IMG/VR virus record: IMGVR_UViG_3300010399_000230
Coordinates: 1 to 35,748 of that record
Source: a virus
Direction: 5' to 3' (one strand)
Length of the DNA stretch: 35,748 bases
Shown here: one piece after another, positions 9,497 to 35,748 of the stretch
Position numbering within the stretch: the first letter of the stretch is position 1
Layout: every line of letters begins with the position of its first letter
Made by a program: the position numbers and the translations under genes
Notes under the pieces: generated by a model
Database searches by the model: none
Seen by the model: the letters and a program-made list of their open reading frames with translations, nothing else
Told to the model about the DNA's origin: nothing

Positions 9497-11584
9497 TCAC
9501 AGCGAGTAGGTGATAGTCGAGCCCACCGGGCCCTTCGTGCTGCTGTTAGTCCACCCTGTGGGCGAGCCGCCGATCGAGTAGGTGATCACGCCGCTTCCGG
9601 GCGAGATGCTGGCAGTGACGTTGGCGGTGTAAGCGCCGTTGTTGGTGGCCGACACCGGACAAACAACCGTACTGACGAACGGCTGCAGGAACCCAGGCAG
9701 GCCAGTGATCGTCAGCGCGTTGCTCACTGACGTTCCGGTGATCGTTGGAATCGTCAGTGTGACCTGGTTGCCGTTGAGCGCCCACTCGATGTTTCCTGTC
9801 ACCGACGATGTGCAGCCAGTGATGGAGCCCGAGAAGGTGCCGGAGTTGGCCGACGTGATCGTCGAGCCGGTCTGCGTGAATGGCACCGTCGAATTGGACG
9901 GGTTGGTCTCCAGCGAGAAGCCCGTCAGCGTCGAAGTGGTGGACTGGACGACCGGGTCGGTGGTAGTCGTCTGCACCACGGAGATGCCGCCCACCTGCAC
10001 CGCGGCGCCCGTCGCGCCAGCGAATCGCACCCCACCGGAGGCCATGGAGCCCTGCAGAGAACCGCCGTTGATGTTCAGGCCGTCGCAGGCGCCCACGATC
10101 AGGTATCCGGCGTTCTGCTGCGCGCCACCGGCGTTCTTGACGACATTCCCCGTGGCGACTGCGTTCTTTGTGTTCGTCAGGGCGATGTTGGCCGTGTTGC
10201 CGCCGTTGACCAGGCCCGCCGCGTTGTAGAAGCCGTCGACGATGTTGCCCACCAGCTGCAGGCCCGACATTGGGTGCGCCGCATCGAATCCCTGACAGAA
10301 GATGCCTGCGTGCTGCGCTGCCGCGCCGGCCCAGGTGTCGGTCGTCGTCGCGCGGATGTTGTTCAGCGCCAGGATGATGTTGGTAAAGACGTTGGTCACC
10401 AGCGAGGCGGTCAGGTCAAAGCCCACGCGCACGTTCCAGATCTGGTTGGCAATGGCCGTGAAGTTGTTGACCTCGTGGCACATCACGGCATCCCAAGCCG
10501 GGCAGTTCCACATGAAGTTGTGCGACCAGTTGATGCCCGACTCGGGCGAGCCGTTGAGCATGTCGCCCGTGGCCGAGAAGCAGTAGCTGTTGCCGGCGCC
10601 CGCAAAGTCGCTGTCGTGCACGAAGTTGCCGACGCCTCGCAGGTAGTTGCTCAGCGAGGCCAGCACGCCGAACAGATACCAGTTGTGGACGTTGTTGCGC
10701 TCAAGGACGACCTGCGAGCACTTGACCGCCGCCAGCAGCGTGTAGAAGTCGCTCAGCTCGCAGTCCCGGACGGACACGTCGGTGCAGGCGGCAAAGTCGA
10801 CCAGGCCGGTTCCCTTGGCCTCGTAGCCGCCCACGGTCGCCACCGGCATGGTGCTCGAACCCAAGCCCTGGAACTTGATTCCTTCTAGTTTCACGCCGGT
10901 GCGACCGACGGCCTCCAGGATGTGGTGTCCCGCCACCGTGCTTTTGAGCGTCGCCCCCTTGACGCCGCGGATCTGCGTGTAGTCGGACAGGACAGCAATG
11001 TTGTTGGCGTTGTGCAGGCCTGGGGGGACGAAAAGGTGCAGGCCTTTGGCGCTGGCCGCAGCCATGGCGGTGTTCCAGTTCGACGAGAGATCGTCGGCGT
11101 TCGTGCCAGCAGCAATCCCCGACCACTTCGCGCGGTCGATGAACCGCAGGATGGACACCTCGTTGAGCTGAAGCAGGTCGCTCGTGACCTTTAGGAACGA
11201 CGGTGCGAGCGAGTCGTACAGGCCGATTTGACCGGCGCCCTGCGAAGGATCGGTCTGGTTGGCAATTGCGACGCTCAGGTCACCGATGGGATCAGCCTTG
11301 CGCGTCCAAACAGTTGACCCATCTGAACGCTTGAGGCAAATGTCATAGCTGCCAGTCGTCAGGTACAAAGGCGCGGGAAGCTCCCCCCGGGCATTCAAAG
11401 CGATGTACTGTCCACCCAAACCATCATTGGTGTAGGTGTGTGGAACCAGCCCAGCCGAGTCGGTATACGCCGTCTTGAACGTAGTCGTTCCGGCCGTGTA
11501 GGTGTACAGGCGCATTCCCAAGCCAGCCACGCTGGCATCGGTGAACTCCTGAAGGCTGAAGACTCCGGAGAGGCTTGCGGTCAT
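9497..11584 (-). CDS. Tailspike with beta-helix domain (receptor-binding protein)
   Basis: The 695-residue protein starts with a particle-binding domain I recognise from many podovirus spikes: VFSLQEFTDASVAGLGMRLY, YTAGTTTFKTAYTD, then GGQYIALNARGELPAPLYL. From about residue 165 it is a repetitive parallel beta-helix with phrases such as NNIAVLSDYTQIRGV, VSVRDCELSDFY and QVVLERNNVHNWY. The C-terminal about 120 residues are rich in serine, threonine and glycine and resemble a beta-sandwich. Such trimers bind, and often cleave, surface polysaccharide. Catalytic residues cannot be assigned by eye. Its leader carries the hairpin element also found before the coat gene. It is followed directly by the lysis genes. 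Confidence 0.85.
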   Translation of the reverse strand: MTASLSGVFSLQEFTDASVAGLGMRLYTYTAGTTTFKTAYTDSAGLVPHTYTNDGLGGQYIALNARGELPAPLYLTTGSYDICLKRSDGSTVWTRKADPIGDLSVAIANQTDPSQGAGQIGLYDSLAPSFLKVTSDLLQLNEVSILRFIDRAKWSGIAAGTNADDLSSNWNTAMAAASAKGLHLFVPPGLHNANNIAVLSDYTQIRGVKGATLKSTVAGHHILEAVGRTGVKLEGIKFQGLGSSTMPVATVGGYEAKGTGLVDFAACTDVSVRDCELSDFYTLLAAVKCSQVVLERNNVHNWYLFGVLASLSNYLRGVGNFVHDSDFAGAGNSYCFSATGDMLNGSPESGINWSHNFMWNCPAWDAVMCHEVNNFTAIANQIWNVRVGFDLTASLVTNVFTNIILALNNIRATTTDTWAGAAAQHAGIFCQGFDAAHPMSGLQLVGNIVDGFYNAAGLVNGGNTANIALTNTKNAVATGNVVKNAGGAQQNAGYLIVGACDGLNINGGSLQGSMASGGVRFAGATGAAVQVGGISVVQTTTTDPVVQSTTSTLTGFSLETNPSNSTVPFTQTGSTITSANSGTFSGSITGCTSSVTGNIEWALNGNQVTLTIPTITGTSVSNALTITGLPGFLQPFVSTVVCPVSATNNGAYTANVTASISPGSGVITYSIGGSPTGWTNSSTKGPVGSTITYSL

Positions 11585-11590
11585 AATGGT

Positions 11591-11617
11591 CTTTCGGCGC
11601 CTCTCGGCGTTAGAAAG
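11591..11617 (-). promoter_or_regulatory. Two-stem RNA hairpin element in tailspike leader
   Basis: Read on the minus strand: CTTTC, UAA, CGCC, GAGA, GGCG, CC, GAAAG. The inner stem CGCC/GGCG closes a GAGA (GNRA) tetraloop, and the outer stem CTTTC/GAAAG is set off by a UAA/CC internal loop. The 3' strand ends six bases before the tailspike ATG, where the ribosome-binding site should be, and no other good site is present. Confidence 0.75.
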
Positions 11618-11723
11618 TGAATCGGAAAGGTCTAGGGCGAGCCCATGTCGTATGTCGGTTACGTGTTGACGAAGGCCGCTGTCATCGTGTTTCTGGCGTT
11701 CTGCTGGGGCTTGTACTGCGGGT

Positions 11724-15575: not shown

Positions 15576-16109
15576 TCAGCGCTCCACGCGGATGCACACG
15601 ATCATCGTGATCCGCTCATAGTTGGTCGGGTTGACCACCCAATGGGTGTGTGAGTTGTCGAACGTGAACAGGTCGCCCGGCCGCGTTTCGAGTTCTTCCC
15701 CGTCAAAGCAGAACTTCTGCCCTGGCGCGCTCGTGATCTGCACGGCGAACTTGTCGTAACGCCGTGCGTGCCAGCCCGGATCGGTGTGGGGCTTGACGCT
15801 CTTTCCAGCGGGGATCCGCGTGATCAGCACGCCGCCCAGCTCAACCCCATCCACGGCGCGCATCACGTCCAGGCACAGCGCCTTGACACCCAGGACATCC
15901 GCCGAGGGATACCAATGCGAGTCATGAGGCTGGCCGTCGACCGCGCGTTCCGGGTCGCCATAGCGAACCCAAATGTCATCGAGCCCGTGGTGAGGGCTGG
16001 TCGGGTCTTCGGTTCGCGCCTTGTGCTCGTTCCAGAGTTCGGGATGCTCCTGAAGTGCCCAAAGCACCGGAGCGACCCGGAGACCTTCGGTCAGCCGTTG
16101 GATCTTCAC
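15576..16109 (-). CDS. 2-oxoglutarate/Fe(II) oxygenase, aspartyl/asparaginyl hydroxylase-like
   Basis: This 177-residue protein has the double-stranded beta-helix signature of Fe(II)/2-oxoglutarate hydroxylases of the Asp/Arg-hydroxylase type. KPHTDPG supplies the metal ligands H108 and D110, NSHTHWVVN the distal ligand (H154 or H156), and ERITMIV the 2-oxoglutarate-binding R166. It would hydroxylate a protein or another substrate. It lies inside the virion operon between a small gene and the first ejection protein, overlapping the former by four bases, so it is expressed with structural proteins. A virion protein or a host surface protein could be the target; both ideas are inference. The catalytic set appears complete. 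Confidence 0.85.
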
Positions 16110-19411: not shown

Positions 19412-20686
19412 TCAGTTCGTGCGGCGAACGCCGAAGTTCGGCAGCACCACACCAGCGCCCCAAAGCACGTCAAAGCGGCTGATGAAGCGGTTGTTGAGGA
19501 TGTCGAAGCCGCGGACGAATCGCAGCGAGATGCCGCCTTCGTCAGCCAGCGATGCCTGGTAGGCCATGTCCATTCCCTTGGGCAGTTCCTGCTTGGGAGA
19601 GACGAACACCACCGCGTCCTTGTGCCAGACGAGGTTATTGGAGTACGTCGTGCTGGCAGCGCCAGAGGTGACCGTGATCGCGGCGTTGTCGGCCGGTCGG
19701 TTGGTCACGTTCTGGAAGGCGCCACCAGCGATGATGGCCGGCGAGATCGGGATCGTGGCGTTGCCGCTAGCATCCGAAGAAACTTGCGCCGTCACCAGGA
19801 ACGACTGCAGCACGCCCGTCGATTGCTTGGTCTCGGGGTTGACCGAGAACACGCCCCCGATCGTGAAGGTGTCGCCTTGGTTCAGGCGAACCGCAGCAGC
19901 AGCCGTCCAGCCGTCCGTGACCAGGTTCGTGGTCGCCGCATACGGGTTGTCGGTCGCGCCCGTGTTGATGGTGCCTTGGTTGGCGCCATTGACCAGCGGC
20001 GTGCCGCCCAGCGGGCCGACGGTGTGCGACGGCACGTTCTGCGACATGGCGATGTCCAGGCCCGCACCGGTCTTGACGATACCCGTCTTGTACTGGTCTG
20101 CCAGGATCTGCTGGCTGTTGAACAGCGACGAGACACCGGCCACGATGGTGGCGTTTGCGCCCGGTTCGACAGCGGCCATGCGCTGACCGTCACGCGGCAC
20201 GCTCATGCGATCGAGCGGAACACCAGCGTTGAGCAGGTCGGCGAACGTCGCGGGCGGCGTGCCCGGCGTGCCCACCATCTGGTGAAAGCCGTTCTTCATG
20301 ATCTGGCCGAGCTGGTAGTCCAGAATCGCCGAGATCTTCAGGCCGGCCGGCATCAGGTAGCGCTTCTTGAACGCCGGGTCGACCTGGCCGTTCGAGCCGA
20401 TGGAGGTCGCCAGTTCGGTGGAACCGACAGCGAAGTCCACGCCCAGCAGCGGCTGAATCGTGATCGGCGTGGTGGACTCGGTGATGTCCTGCACGTTGGC
20501 CGCATCGCCAGTGCGGTGCGTGAACTGCACCGGGCGGCGGGCGTTCAGGACGGAGCCGGGCTTGTACTGGCCCGACCACGAGTCCTCGAAGTCCGATTGC
20601 ACGTTGCCCAGGAAGGCGGACGTGTTGTGGGCGATACGCAGAACTTCGTTGGTGACGATCTGCGAGACTGCAAGAGCGTTGCTCAT
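19412..20686 (-). CDS. Major capsid protein, P22 coat (gp5) type
   Basis: The 424-residue length is close to that of the P22 coat protein (430), and the opening SNALAVSQIVTNEVLRIAHN, then DFEDSWSGQYKPGSVLNARR and FTHRTGDAANVQDITESTTP, follow the P22-type coat pattern (HK97 fold with an inserted domain). A beta-rich stretch at about 265-350 (GDTFTIGGVFSVNPETKQ, FLVTAQVSSD) corresponds to the I-domain. It builds the icosahedral shell on the scaffold encoded just upstream. The ATG has GGAG eight bases ahead, lying within an RNA hairpin element, and two tandem copies of that element precede it. Confidence 0.9.
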   Translation of the reverse strand: MSNALAVSQIVTNEVLRIAHNTSAFLGNVQSDFEDSWSGQYKPGSVLNARRPVQFTHRTGDAANVQDITESTTPITIQPLLGVDFAVGSTELATSIGSNGQVDPAFKKRYLMPAGLKISAILDYQLGQIMKNGFHQMVGTPGTPPATFADLLNAGVPLDRMSVPRDGQRMAAVEPGANATIVAGVSSLFNSQQILADQYKTGIVKTGAGLDIAMSQNVPSHTVGPLGGTPLVNGANQGTINTGATDNPYAATTNLVTDGWTAAAAVRLNQGDTFTIGGVFSVNPETKQSTGVLQSFLVTAQVSSDASGNATIPISPAIIAGGAFQNVTNRPADNAAITVTSGAASTTYSNNLVWHKDAVVFVSPKQELPKGMDMAYQASLADEGGISLRFVRGFDILNNRFISRFDVLWGAGVVLPNFGVRRTN

Positions 20687-20692
20687 GATGAA

Positions 20693-20721
20693 AACTCCGG
20701 CGCCTCTCGGCGTTAGGAACC
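20693..20721 (-). promoter_or_regulatory. Proximal RNA hairpin element in coat leader
   Basis: Minus-strand reading: GGTTCC, UAA, CGCC, GAGA, GGCG, CC, GGAGTT. The inner CGCC/GGCG stem and GAGA loop equal the tailspike copy, while the outer stem differs and still pairs, using G-U wobbles at its far end. The 3' strand contains the GGAG ribosome-binding site of the coat gene, so folding would sequester it. Confidence 0.75.
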
Positions 20722-20745
20722 TCGGCGCTTCTCAGCGTTAGAGGT
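20719..20745 (-). promoter_or_regulatory. Distal RNA hairpin element in coat leader
   Basis: Minus-strand reading: ACCTC, UAA, CGCU, GAGA, AGCG, CC, GAGGT. Compared with the other two copies, C:G next to the tetraloop becomes U:A, a compensatory double change, and the outer stem is a third different but perfectly paired sequence. It shares three bases with the proximal copy. Confidence 0.75.
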
Positions 20746-20756
20746 GTGAACTTGGA

Positions 20757-21581
20757 TCAGCGTCCCCGCTCCTGCTTGTTCGCCCAGGCGATGTAGGCCT
20801 TGGTGTTGCTCGGATCGGGCATGCCACTTGTCGACTTGCCGCCACCCTTGATCGGTTCAATCGGCGTCGGCGCGTTGGATCGTTGGGGCTTGCTGGCCTT
20901 CTTCGCTTCGAGCTTGGCTTCGATCTGCGCGACCTTGCGTGCAGCCTGCCTGTCGCTCATGTGCGAAAGCGATTCAGCTTCATCCGCGTTGTCAGGATCG
21001 GTCAGGTACTCGATCAGCGCCGCTGGCATCTCGCTCTCGAAGATCGCGTCGGTGGCCGGCTTGGGCCGACCGTTGGAGCCGGTCAGGCCCCCAAACACGT
21101 CATCGAGTTCAGACGACAGGGTGTCGAACTTTTCCTTGCCCCATTCCTTTGACAGGGCATCGACGACTCCGCGGCGGTGCTCGATCTCGGCCTGTTGCTG
21201 GCGAAGGGTCGGTGCGAGCTGTTCGGCTCGCTCTTTGACAATCTTGTCCAGCTCGGCCTGAGAGAGCGTGAGCTTCTCGTCGTTGCCTTGCGATGACGTG
21301 GTTGTACTGGATTGAGTCGGCGCCGTCTCCGCAACCCGTTGCGGTTGCGTGGCGCGAGCTTCGTAGAGTTGGCGCGTCTTGCGATCGATGGCGCGGCGAA
21401 GGCGCTCGATCTCGCGTTGCTCCGGCGTCTTCTCAGGCTTGGCCTTGGCTTCCTCTCCTGAGGCTTGCTCGGTTGAGGATTCGGTGCTTTCGCCCTGCGG
21501 CTGGTGGGACAGTTCTGCGAGCGCGTTGTCGCTCGCCTCAACGGCAGTGGCCGCGACTGGCAATGCGTTTTCGGTAGACAT
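20757..21581 (-). CDS. Scaffolding protein
   Basis: I choose the ATG at 21581, with GGAG upstream, over a longer in-frame form beginning at 21677, giving 274 residues. The protein is highly charged and rich in E, A, Q and K. It has long helices (EREIERLRRAIDRKTRQLYE, LSQAELDKIVKERAEQLAPT) and a basic C-terminal region (KLEAKKASKPQRSNA) suited to contacting coat protein. Location between portal-side genes and the coat gene matches P22 gene 8. The product would fill the procapsid and leave on maturation. No sequence motif is diagnostic, so the call rests on composition and position. Confidence 0.8.
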   Translation of the reverse strand: MSTENALPVAATAVEASDNALAELSHQPQGESTESSTEQASGEEAKAKPEKTPEQREIERLRRAIDRKTRQLYEARATQPQRVAETAPTQSSTTTSSQGNDEKLTLSQAELDKIVKERAEQLAPTLRQQQAEIEHRRGVVDALSKEWGKEKFDTLSSELDDVFGGLTGSNGRPKPATDAIFESEMPAALIEYLTDPDNADEAESLSHMSDRQAARKVAQIEAKLEAKKASKPQRSNAPTPIEPIKGGGKSTSGMPDPSNTKAYIAWANKQERGR

Positions 21582-30140: not shown

Positions 30141-30668
30141 TCATTTCTCCAGTTCTTGCTTGGTGAGGATGCGGAAAGCGTCCCGCATGGTCTTGAGTTC
30201 GTCCACGCTGTATTTCGAGGGTGGGTGCGGGCCTTCCAGCCGCTCGACCACCTCCAGCCCGCGGCGCTCCACGAGGCCGACGCGGAACATGGCCTGGTTG
30301 CCGTGAAGGTGCATGTTGCAGCGCACACATTGGCCATGGATGTTGTCCAGGTGGAAGCGCAGTTCTGGCCTGGCGCCGCGCGAAAGCCAGTGACCAGCCT
30401 GGAAAGACGGCTCCCAGGGCGCTTTGCAGCTGATGCACGGCTTGTAGCGATCTCGGGCGCGGACATAGGCGTTGACCGCCTTTTGCACGTCATCGAGCCA
30501 CCTGGATCGGGGGCGCATGTTGACCAGAGCCAGCTTCAGGGCGGCTCGCTCTGCCTTGACGGACTTGATGGCGCACCGCGGCCCGCAGACAGCCTGCGTC
30601 GTGCGAAAGCGCAGGAATGCCTTCCCACAGGTCTTGCAGGTAGCTTCCGGTGATGCGGTGAGGGTCAC
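30141..30668 (-). CDS. ninG: NinG/Rap-type recombination protein
   Basis: The 175-residue product matches NinG of lambdoid phages, which binds and cleaves branched DNA and supports Red-type recombination. The N-terminal zinc motif CKTCGKAF with VCGPRCA is visible. A second metal and HNH-like part follows: CISCKAPWE, QAGHWLSRGARPELRFHLDN and GQCVRCNMHLHGN. It uses a GTG start overlapping the previous stop. No annealing protein or exonuclease is seen in the window, so partners may be of the host or lie in the missing segment. Assignment is secure. Confidence 0.9.
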   Translation of the reverse strand: MTLTASPEATCKTCGKAFLRFRTTQAVCGPRCAIKSVKAERAALKLALVNMRPRSRWLDDVQKAVNAYVRARDRYKPCISCKAPWEPSFQAGHWLSRGARPELRFHLDNIHGQCVRCNMHLHGNQAMFRVGLVERRGLEVVERLEGPHPPSKYSVDELKTMRDAFRILTKQELEK

Positions 30669-35304: not shown

Positions 35305-35748
35305 CTAACCAAATCAAGATCGTTTCCCGCTGGGATTCGACTCAAATCCTGTTCACGTTTGATGTGCCGGAAGGCATGGAGAGCGGAATGCAGGTACGAG
35401 CTGCGCTGGAGGCGGCGCTAGCTTCCAGGGCCAACCTGTCCAGGGCCGACCTGTCCGGGGCCAACCTGTCCGGGGCCAACCTGTACGGGGCCGACCTGTC
35501 CGGGGCCGACCTGTCCGTGGCCAAACTGTCCGGGGCCGACCTGTCCGGGGCCGACCTGTCCGGGGCCGACCTGTCCGTGGCCAACCTGTACGGGGCCAAC
35601 CTGTACGGGGCCAACCTGTCCGTGGCCAACCTGTCCGGGGCCGACCTGTCCGGGGCCGACATGTCCGGGGCCGACCTGTCCGTGGCCAGACTGTCCGTGG
35701 CCAACATGTCGAGCGCCGACCTGTACGGCGCCAACCTGTCGAGGGCCA
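35301..35748 (+). CDS. Pentapeptide-repeat protein, 3' truncated
   Basis: The GTG at 35301 opens a frame that stays open to the window end (149 residues seen). The N-terminal 43 residues ([39 protein letters not shown]) match the lead-in I know from phage pentapeptide-repeat proteins. After it come at least 21 units of A(D/N)LSG type, for instance [20 protein letters not shown]. Such repeats fold as a right-handed quadrilateral beta-helix. Some family members mimic DNA and bind gyrase, but phage copies are untested. The C-terminal domain lies outside. It belongs to the operator-controlled early operon. Confidence 0.85.
35430..35748 (+). repeat. 15-bp in-frame tandem repeat array
   Basis: About 21 units of 15 bases, consensus GCCGACCTGTCCGGG, run off the window edge. 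In the first 18 units all differences are amino-acid changing (GAC/AAC, TCC/TAC, GGG/GTG and CTG/ATG among others). Silent changes appear only in the last few units. Confidence 0.95.

Follow-up and report, generated by a model that had tools for sequence, protein, structure and literature searches.

The window analysed here, that is the whole stretch of 35,748 bases, is an IMG/VR virus record which contains a P22-type coat gene. Three copies of a short hairpin element lie on its minus strand, two in tandem 5' of the coat gene and the third 5' of a long open reading frame, with cores at 20740-20724, 20715-20699 and 11612-11596. The first of these cores reads TAACGCTGAGAAGCGCC, and the other two both read TAACGCCGAGAGGCGCC. 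Within the window, TAANNNNGAGANNNNCC occurs three times against 0.07 expected, and 0 of 100 shuffles reached three occurrences. The first-pass annotation had placed its three copies at these very sites. The features of interest are as follows.

20719-20745, minus strand: hairpin copy 1, upstream member of the tandem pair, with outer stem ACCTC/GAGGT, UAA/CC, inner stem CGCT/AGCG and loop GAGA (sequence, pattern match and fold)
20693-20721, minus strand: hairpin copy 2, adjoining the Shine-Dalgarno (SD) sequence, with core 20715-20699, inner stem CGCC/GGCG, loop GAGA and outer stem GGTTCC/GGAGTT (sequence, pattern match and fold)
20695-20698, minus strand: GGAG SD sequence of the coat gene, within the 3' strand of the copy 2 outer stem (sequence)
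19412-20686, minus strand: P22-type major coat protein gene, 3' of the tandem pair (PF11651, 2e-36; phrog_283, 3.8e-66)
11591-11617, minus strand: hairpin copy 3, with outer stem CTTTC/GAAAG, UAA/CC, inner stem CGCC/GGCG and loop GAGA (pattern match and fold)
9497-11584, minus strand: putative tail fibre or tailspike gene of 695 amino acids, 3' of copy 3 (open reading frame)

Fold and surroundings of the window hairpins

RNA folding predicts the described stems for each of the three hairpins, leaving UAA and CC unpaired. The earlier claim of three different outer stems that all pair is borne out to this extent, but bases 20719-20721 are common to the outer stems of copy 1 and copy 2, so that these two cannot both form in full. 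In the predicted fold of the tandem pair, copy 1 has an outer stem of 5 bp and copy 2 one of 3 bp (UCC/GGA). A covariance model matched copy 2 at 20693-20722 (E 4.4e-9) and copy 3 at 11590-11619 (E 8.6e-9). Between copy 3 and the start codon that follows it, no canonical SD sequence is present. The product of this downstream gene, for which "tailspike" is an earlier label, gave no match to any Pfam or PHROG family, and the element was also found 5' of genes for homologues of it in two other loci (L005 and L020).

Two further observations concern the record itself. An aspartyl/asparaginyl hydroxylase-like gene (PF05118) is located amid the structural genes at 15576-16109 (minus strand), and both record ends are tandem arrays inside open reading frames (1-252 and 35424-35748), made up of a 12-bp unit repeated 21 times and a 15-bp unit repeated 21.7 times.

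Natural variation and distribution of the element

Outside the window, the element was found in dozens of viral contigs, on the coding strand and directly 5' of the SD sequence of structural genes. The exact 17-base core is present in at least 22 stretches of viral DNA, most of which read CC-TAACGCCGAGAGGCGCC-GGAG a few bases 5' of a start codon. Whole records of carriers hold one to four copies each, and the copies followed up run in the direction of the late genes. Downstream of the element lie at least four annotated capsid families (P22_CoatProtein, SU10_MCP, Mu-like gpT and GP7), but also genes for scaffold, portal, the terminase large subunit, a DNA ejection protein, the major tail protein, a virion structural protein, a family of about 100 amino acids that follows the capsid protein in gene order, and putative fibre proteins. 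Tandem pairs recur 5' of capsid, portal and tail genes.

Structural constraint was assessed by scans in which one part of the element was left free while the remaining parts were fixed; the figures obtained are samples of the matches listed. With all four inner pairs free, 37 of 40 viral places were fully paired among the matches listed, and these used only the stems CGCC, CGTC and CGCT. When the two variable inner pairs and one loop base were left free, 137 of the 143 matches listed had Watson-Crick pairs, compared with 6% by chance. G-U pairs are nearly absent from the inner stem (1 of 143 among the matches listed), which is unusual for a covarying RNA stem. A free internal loop returned UAA/CC, UAA/CT or UAA/CA in 29 of 68 matches listed, all 29 with a start codon, while every other loop was seen at most twice among the matches listed, as scattered background. 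Leaving a loop of 3-8 bases free gave, among the matches listed with SD sequence and start codon, GNGA in 46 of 47 tetraloops and GNGA plus a pyrimidine in 8 of 9 pentaloops; no GNAA loop was among them. In alignment A1, 53 double-change cells were counted against 9.1 ± 2.6 in shuffled alignments and 0-9 in slid controls. Within orthologous SU10-type capsid leaders, the stem varies between CGCC, CGCT, CGTC and TGCC with matching partners, at constant loop and position. Hence, the proposal of a functional RNA with conserved loops and covarying stems at a ribosome-binding site (RBS) is supported by the covariation tests, and further covarying copies in related phages, on whose existence this proposal had been staked, were indeed found. 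The consensus of the element is [outer stem, at least 2 bp]-YAA-CGNN-GNGA(Y)-NNCG-CH-[outer stem], and it abuts the SD sequence on its 5' side. In viral copies, GAGA loops occur mostly with CC in the 3' part of the internal loop, and GCGA and GTGA mostly with CT, an association which may reflect either lineage or contact.

Close relatives of the window phage (coat identity 76-80%) are mostly without the element, and it is absent from the capsid-gene leaders of relatives among phages of Rhodoferax, Methylophilales, Bradyrhizobium, Xanthomonas and Pseudomonas. A short blastn search of GenBank phages with three element variants gave chance-level matches only, and a plasmid search gave no convincing match. 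In bacterial genomes, the element is rare and its chromosomal copies sit in prophage or mobile regions. Searching about 85,000 genomes with the pattern with all four pairs free yielded 59 places among the matches listed, five of them fully paired, in four genomes. The carrier genomes that could be named are Variovorax, Ramlibacter, a Thiobacillaceae MAG and one unplaced Proteobacteria MAG, mostly of Burkholderiales type, a host range resting on few named genomes. At E 1e-4, matches were obtained in 3 of 401 genomes from the family group that includes Variovorax, 2 of 399 genomes of the order and 1 of 398 of the phylum, each count including the Variovorax genome itself. There, strong matches are confined to one 10-kb region, 5' of structural genes. 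A natural prophage of Variovorax paradoxus ISL-79 contains three strong copies. Copies in Ramlibacter and SZAS-78 lie 3' of an integrase gene and 5' of a small HTH-like gene, with a primase-helicase beyond in SZAS-78. Three bacterial loci place the element 5' of small HTH-like genes near an integrase (L292:5116-5370, L255:3489-3854 and L338:1237-1494); in the second of them the element is tandem and a primase-helicase is nearby. Satellite-like mobile elements, as judged from this gene content, may therefore use the same signal. A loose-pattern search of four carrier genomes gave no host copies: TAA-type matches were all known copies of the element, and CAA-type matches look like background. 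Outside mobile regions, no host gene was seen to carry the element; any host factor would thus need other sites for its own genes.

The outer stem at the Shine-Dalgarno sequence

After removal of duplicates, 210 copies were collected, of which 167 have a start codon 8-15 bases downstream of the core, with distances of 9 and 10 bases predominating. An SD sequence at ordinary spacing to the start codon lies between core and start in 158 of these 167 SD-adjacent copies, and in 137 of the 167 the SD sequence takes the position seen in the coat leader of the window. The nine copies with no recognisable SD sequence include window copy 3 and two leaders of portal genes whose stems are UUUAC/GUAAA; L005 has a portal leader of this SD-less kind. 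The idea that UAA is simply the stop codon of the preceding gene fits no more than 22 copies.

Pairing of the outer stem was tested on 39 SD-adjacent copies that no pattern had selected for outer pairing. Outer pairs 1 and 2 are both formed in 38 of them (shuffle mean 19.5, maximum 29), by C-G, U-G, U-A, G-C and A-U pairs, whereas pairs 3 and beyond are at chance level in SD-adjacent copies. Outer stems of at least 5 bp occur in 13 of the 43 copies without a nearby start codon, compared with 17 of the 167 SD-adjacent ones. The outer stem is real, yet it is kept short where the SD sequence lies in it. The earlier idea that folding hides the SD sequence is weakened by this result, as retention of the first two pairs with longer pairing at chance argues against strong masking of the SD sequence as the general principle.

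Possible binding partner and mode of action

The MS2/R17 coat operator hairpin and the T4 RegA and gp32 sites are phage translational operators, and the present element resembles them as a short RNA element with conserved unpaired bases at the RBS of phage genes. It differs in its YAA/CH internal loop, its GNGA loop and an only lightly paired SD sequence, and in serving many structural genes per phage in unrelated dsDNA phages, with a ligand that is only conjectured. While the hairpin does lie at the RBS as in MS2-like operators, the downstream genes are not those under one coat protein, since they comprise at least four annotated capsid families as well as scaffold, portal, terminase, ejection and tail genes. 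Coat-protein autoregulation is thus unlikely, and coat protein, named earlier as a possible ligand, is not supported in that role. Lambda-type boxB of nut sites shares the short stem and GNRA-like loop, 5-nt variants included, but the element studied here, when compared by position, is SD-adjacent at structural genes, has an internal loop and an outer stem, and occurs in several copies per late region; no connection with an antiterminator came to light. Ribosomal-protein leaders likewise are cis RNAs controlling the translation of highly expressed assembly proteins; here, however, the genes are phage virion genes and no resemblance to an Rfam family is seen. A CsrA/RsmA site would need GGA in the hairpin loop, whereas the loops are GNGA (mostly GAGA, GCGA and GTGA) and GGA lies in the outer stem and SD sequence. 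An intrinsic terminator does not apply either, as 20600-20900 contains no terminator-like site and the hairpin is followed by SD sequence and start codon instead of a U run. Phage-carried RNA motifs were also obtained by comparative genomics by Weinberg et al. 2010 (PMC2864571), who described phage-associated candidate RNAs (e.g. manA and wcaG; cyanophages) linked mainly to metabolic genes; the main text of that study does not mention capsid. Rfam 15 gave no match in the window at the gathering score and only stray sub-threshold matches at element loci, and no published description was found in the open literature, the range of our search, in line with the earlier statement that no element of this layout was known. 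RBS hairpins are a known kind, while a single element common to many structural genes of dsDNA phages that are themselves unrelated is, to the extent of our search, undescribed.

The constancy of YAA, CH and GNGA next to changing paired bases suggests recognition by a trans-acting partner. Clustering the open reading frames of 32 carriers revealed no universal phage gene, the best being terminase in 21 of 32, with the caveat that rapid evolution could hide a phage protein from BLAST clustering and that contigs may be incomplete. A lambda NinG-like gene (PF05766, 4.4e-50) is present in the window at 30141-30668 (minus strand). NinG seemed common in the first 12 phages and is enriched among carriers, but with 11 of 27 carriers against 1 of 23 controls it is no universal partner. 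The phage or host regulator envisaged in the first-pass annotation is still conceivable; none of the phage gene families occurs in every carrier. This negative evidence and the occurrence of the element in unrelated phages speak for a host partner or the ribosome.

With moderate confidence, and judging from sequence, we therefore read the element as a cis-acting RNA of phage late mRNAs that is bound at translation initiation by a host-supplied factor or the 30S subunit. The YAA/CH internal loop and the GNGA loop would form the recognition surface, held in place by the stems, with the first two SD bases inside the outer stem. The binder could be an RNA-binding protein supplied by the host, or the 30S subunit close to the anti-SD sequence, and its binding would determine how much virion protein is made, or when, for the whole set of genes as one regulon. 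Tandem copies would provide some genes, among them capsid genes, with a second site. We lean towards enhancement, as most of the SD sequence is left free and the gene products are abundant proteins; repression by occlusion is possible.

Other explanations fit parts of these data. A translational operator for a phage-encoded repressor or activator, which on binding to the hairpin would close or open the RBS of every structural gene, would account for sequence-specific loops at the RBS and for the presence of several copies in one phage, some of them in tandem at capsid, portal and tail genes; it is unlikely, as unrelated phage types would all need one protein and neither terminase nor NinG, nor any other gene family, is common to the carriers. 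Rather unlikely, too, is a purely cis-acting leader that stabilises the mRNA or keeps the SD sequence unpaired and so raises translation with no specific partner. The genes are typically highly expressed, the element is next to the SD sequence and the outer stem is short where the SD sequence lies inside, but a generic hairpin has no need of YAA/CH, of inner pairs C-G then G-C, or of GNGA and never GNAA across unrelated phages.

Cleavage of the late polycistronic mRNA by an endonuclease at a hairpin 5' of each structural gene would suit both the location between genes of co-directional late operons and the tandem copies. We consider it very unlikely, given that the element is shorter than a typical RNase III site and that the tight SD linkage would be left unexplained. 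Chance palindromes or a REP-like mobile repeat, which a short, multicopy, palindromic core might suggest, are refuted by the shuffle counts, the unbiased covariation, the constant strand and spacing from the start codon, and the sequence change within orthologous leaders, leaving a virtually negligible probability.

Returning to binding by a host factor or the ribosome, a broader and tentative version holds that the element is an RNA module for docking the ribosome or a host protein, exchanged among unrelated phages, and satellite-like elements, whose hosts belong to one clade; this module may define a translational regulon of virion genes and work even with no canonical SD sequence. The timing of virion gene expression in dsDNA phages is thought to be mainly transcriptional. 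A strictly conserved RNA element that marks the RBS in numerous structural genes, in phages whose capsids are unrelated, would mean that late translation stands under one common signal. About 200 natural variants are available for finding the partner, and the element could be a portable expression part for Burkholderiales.
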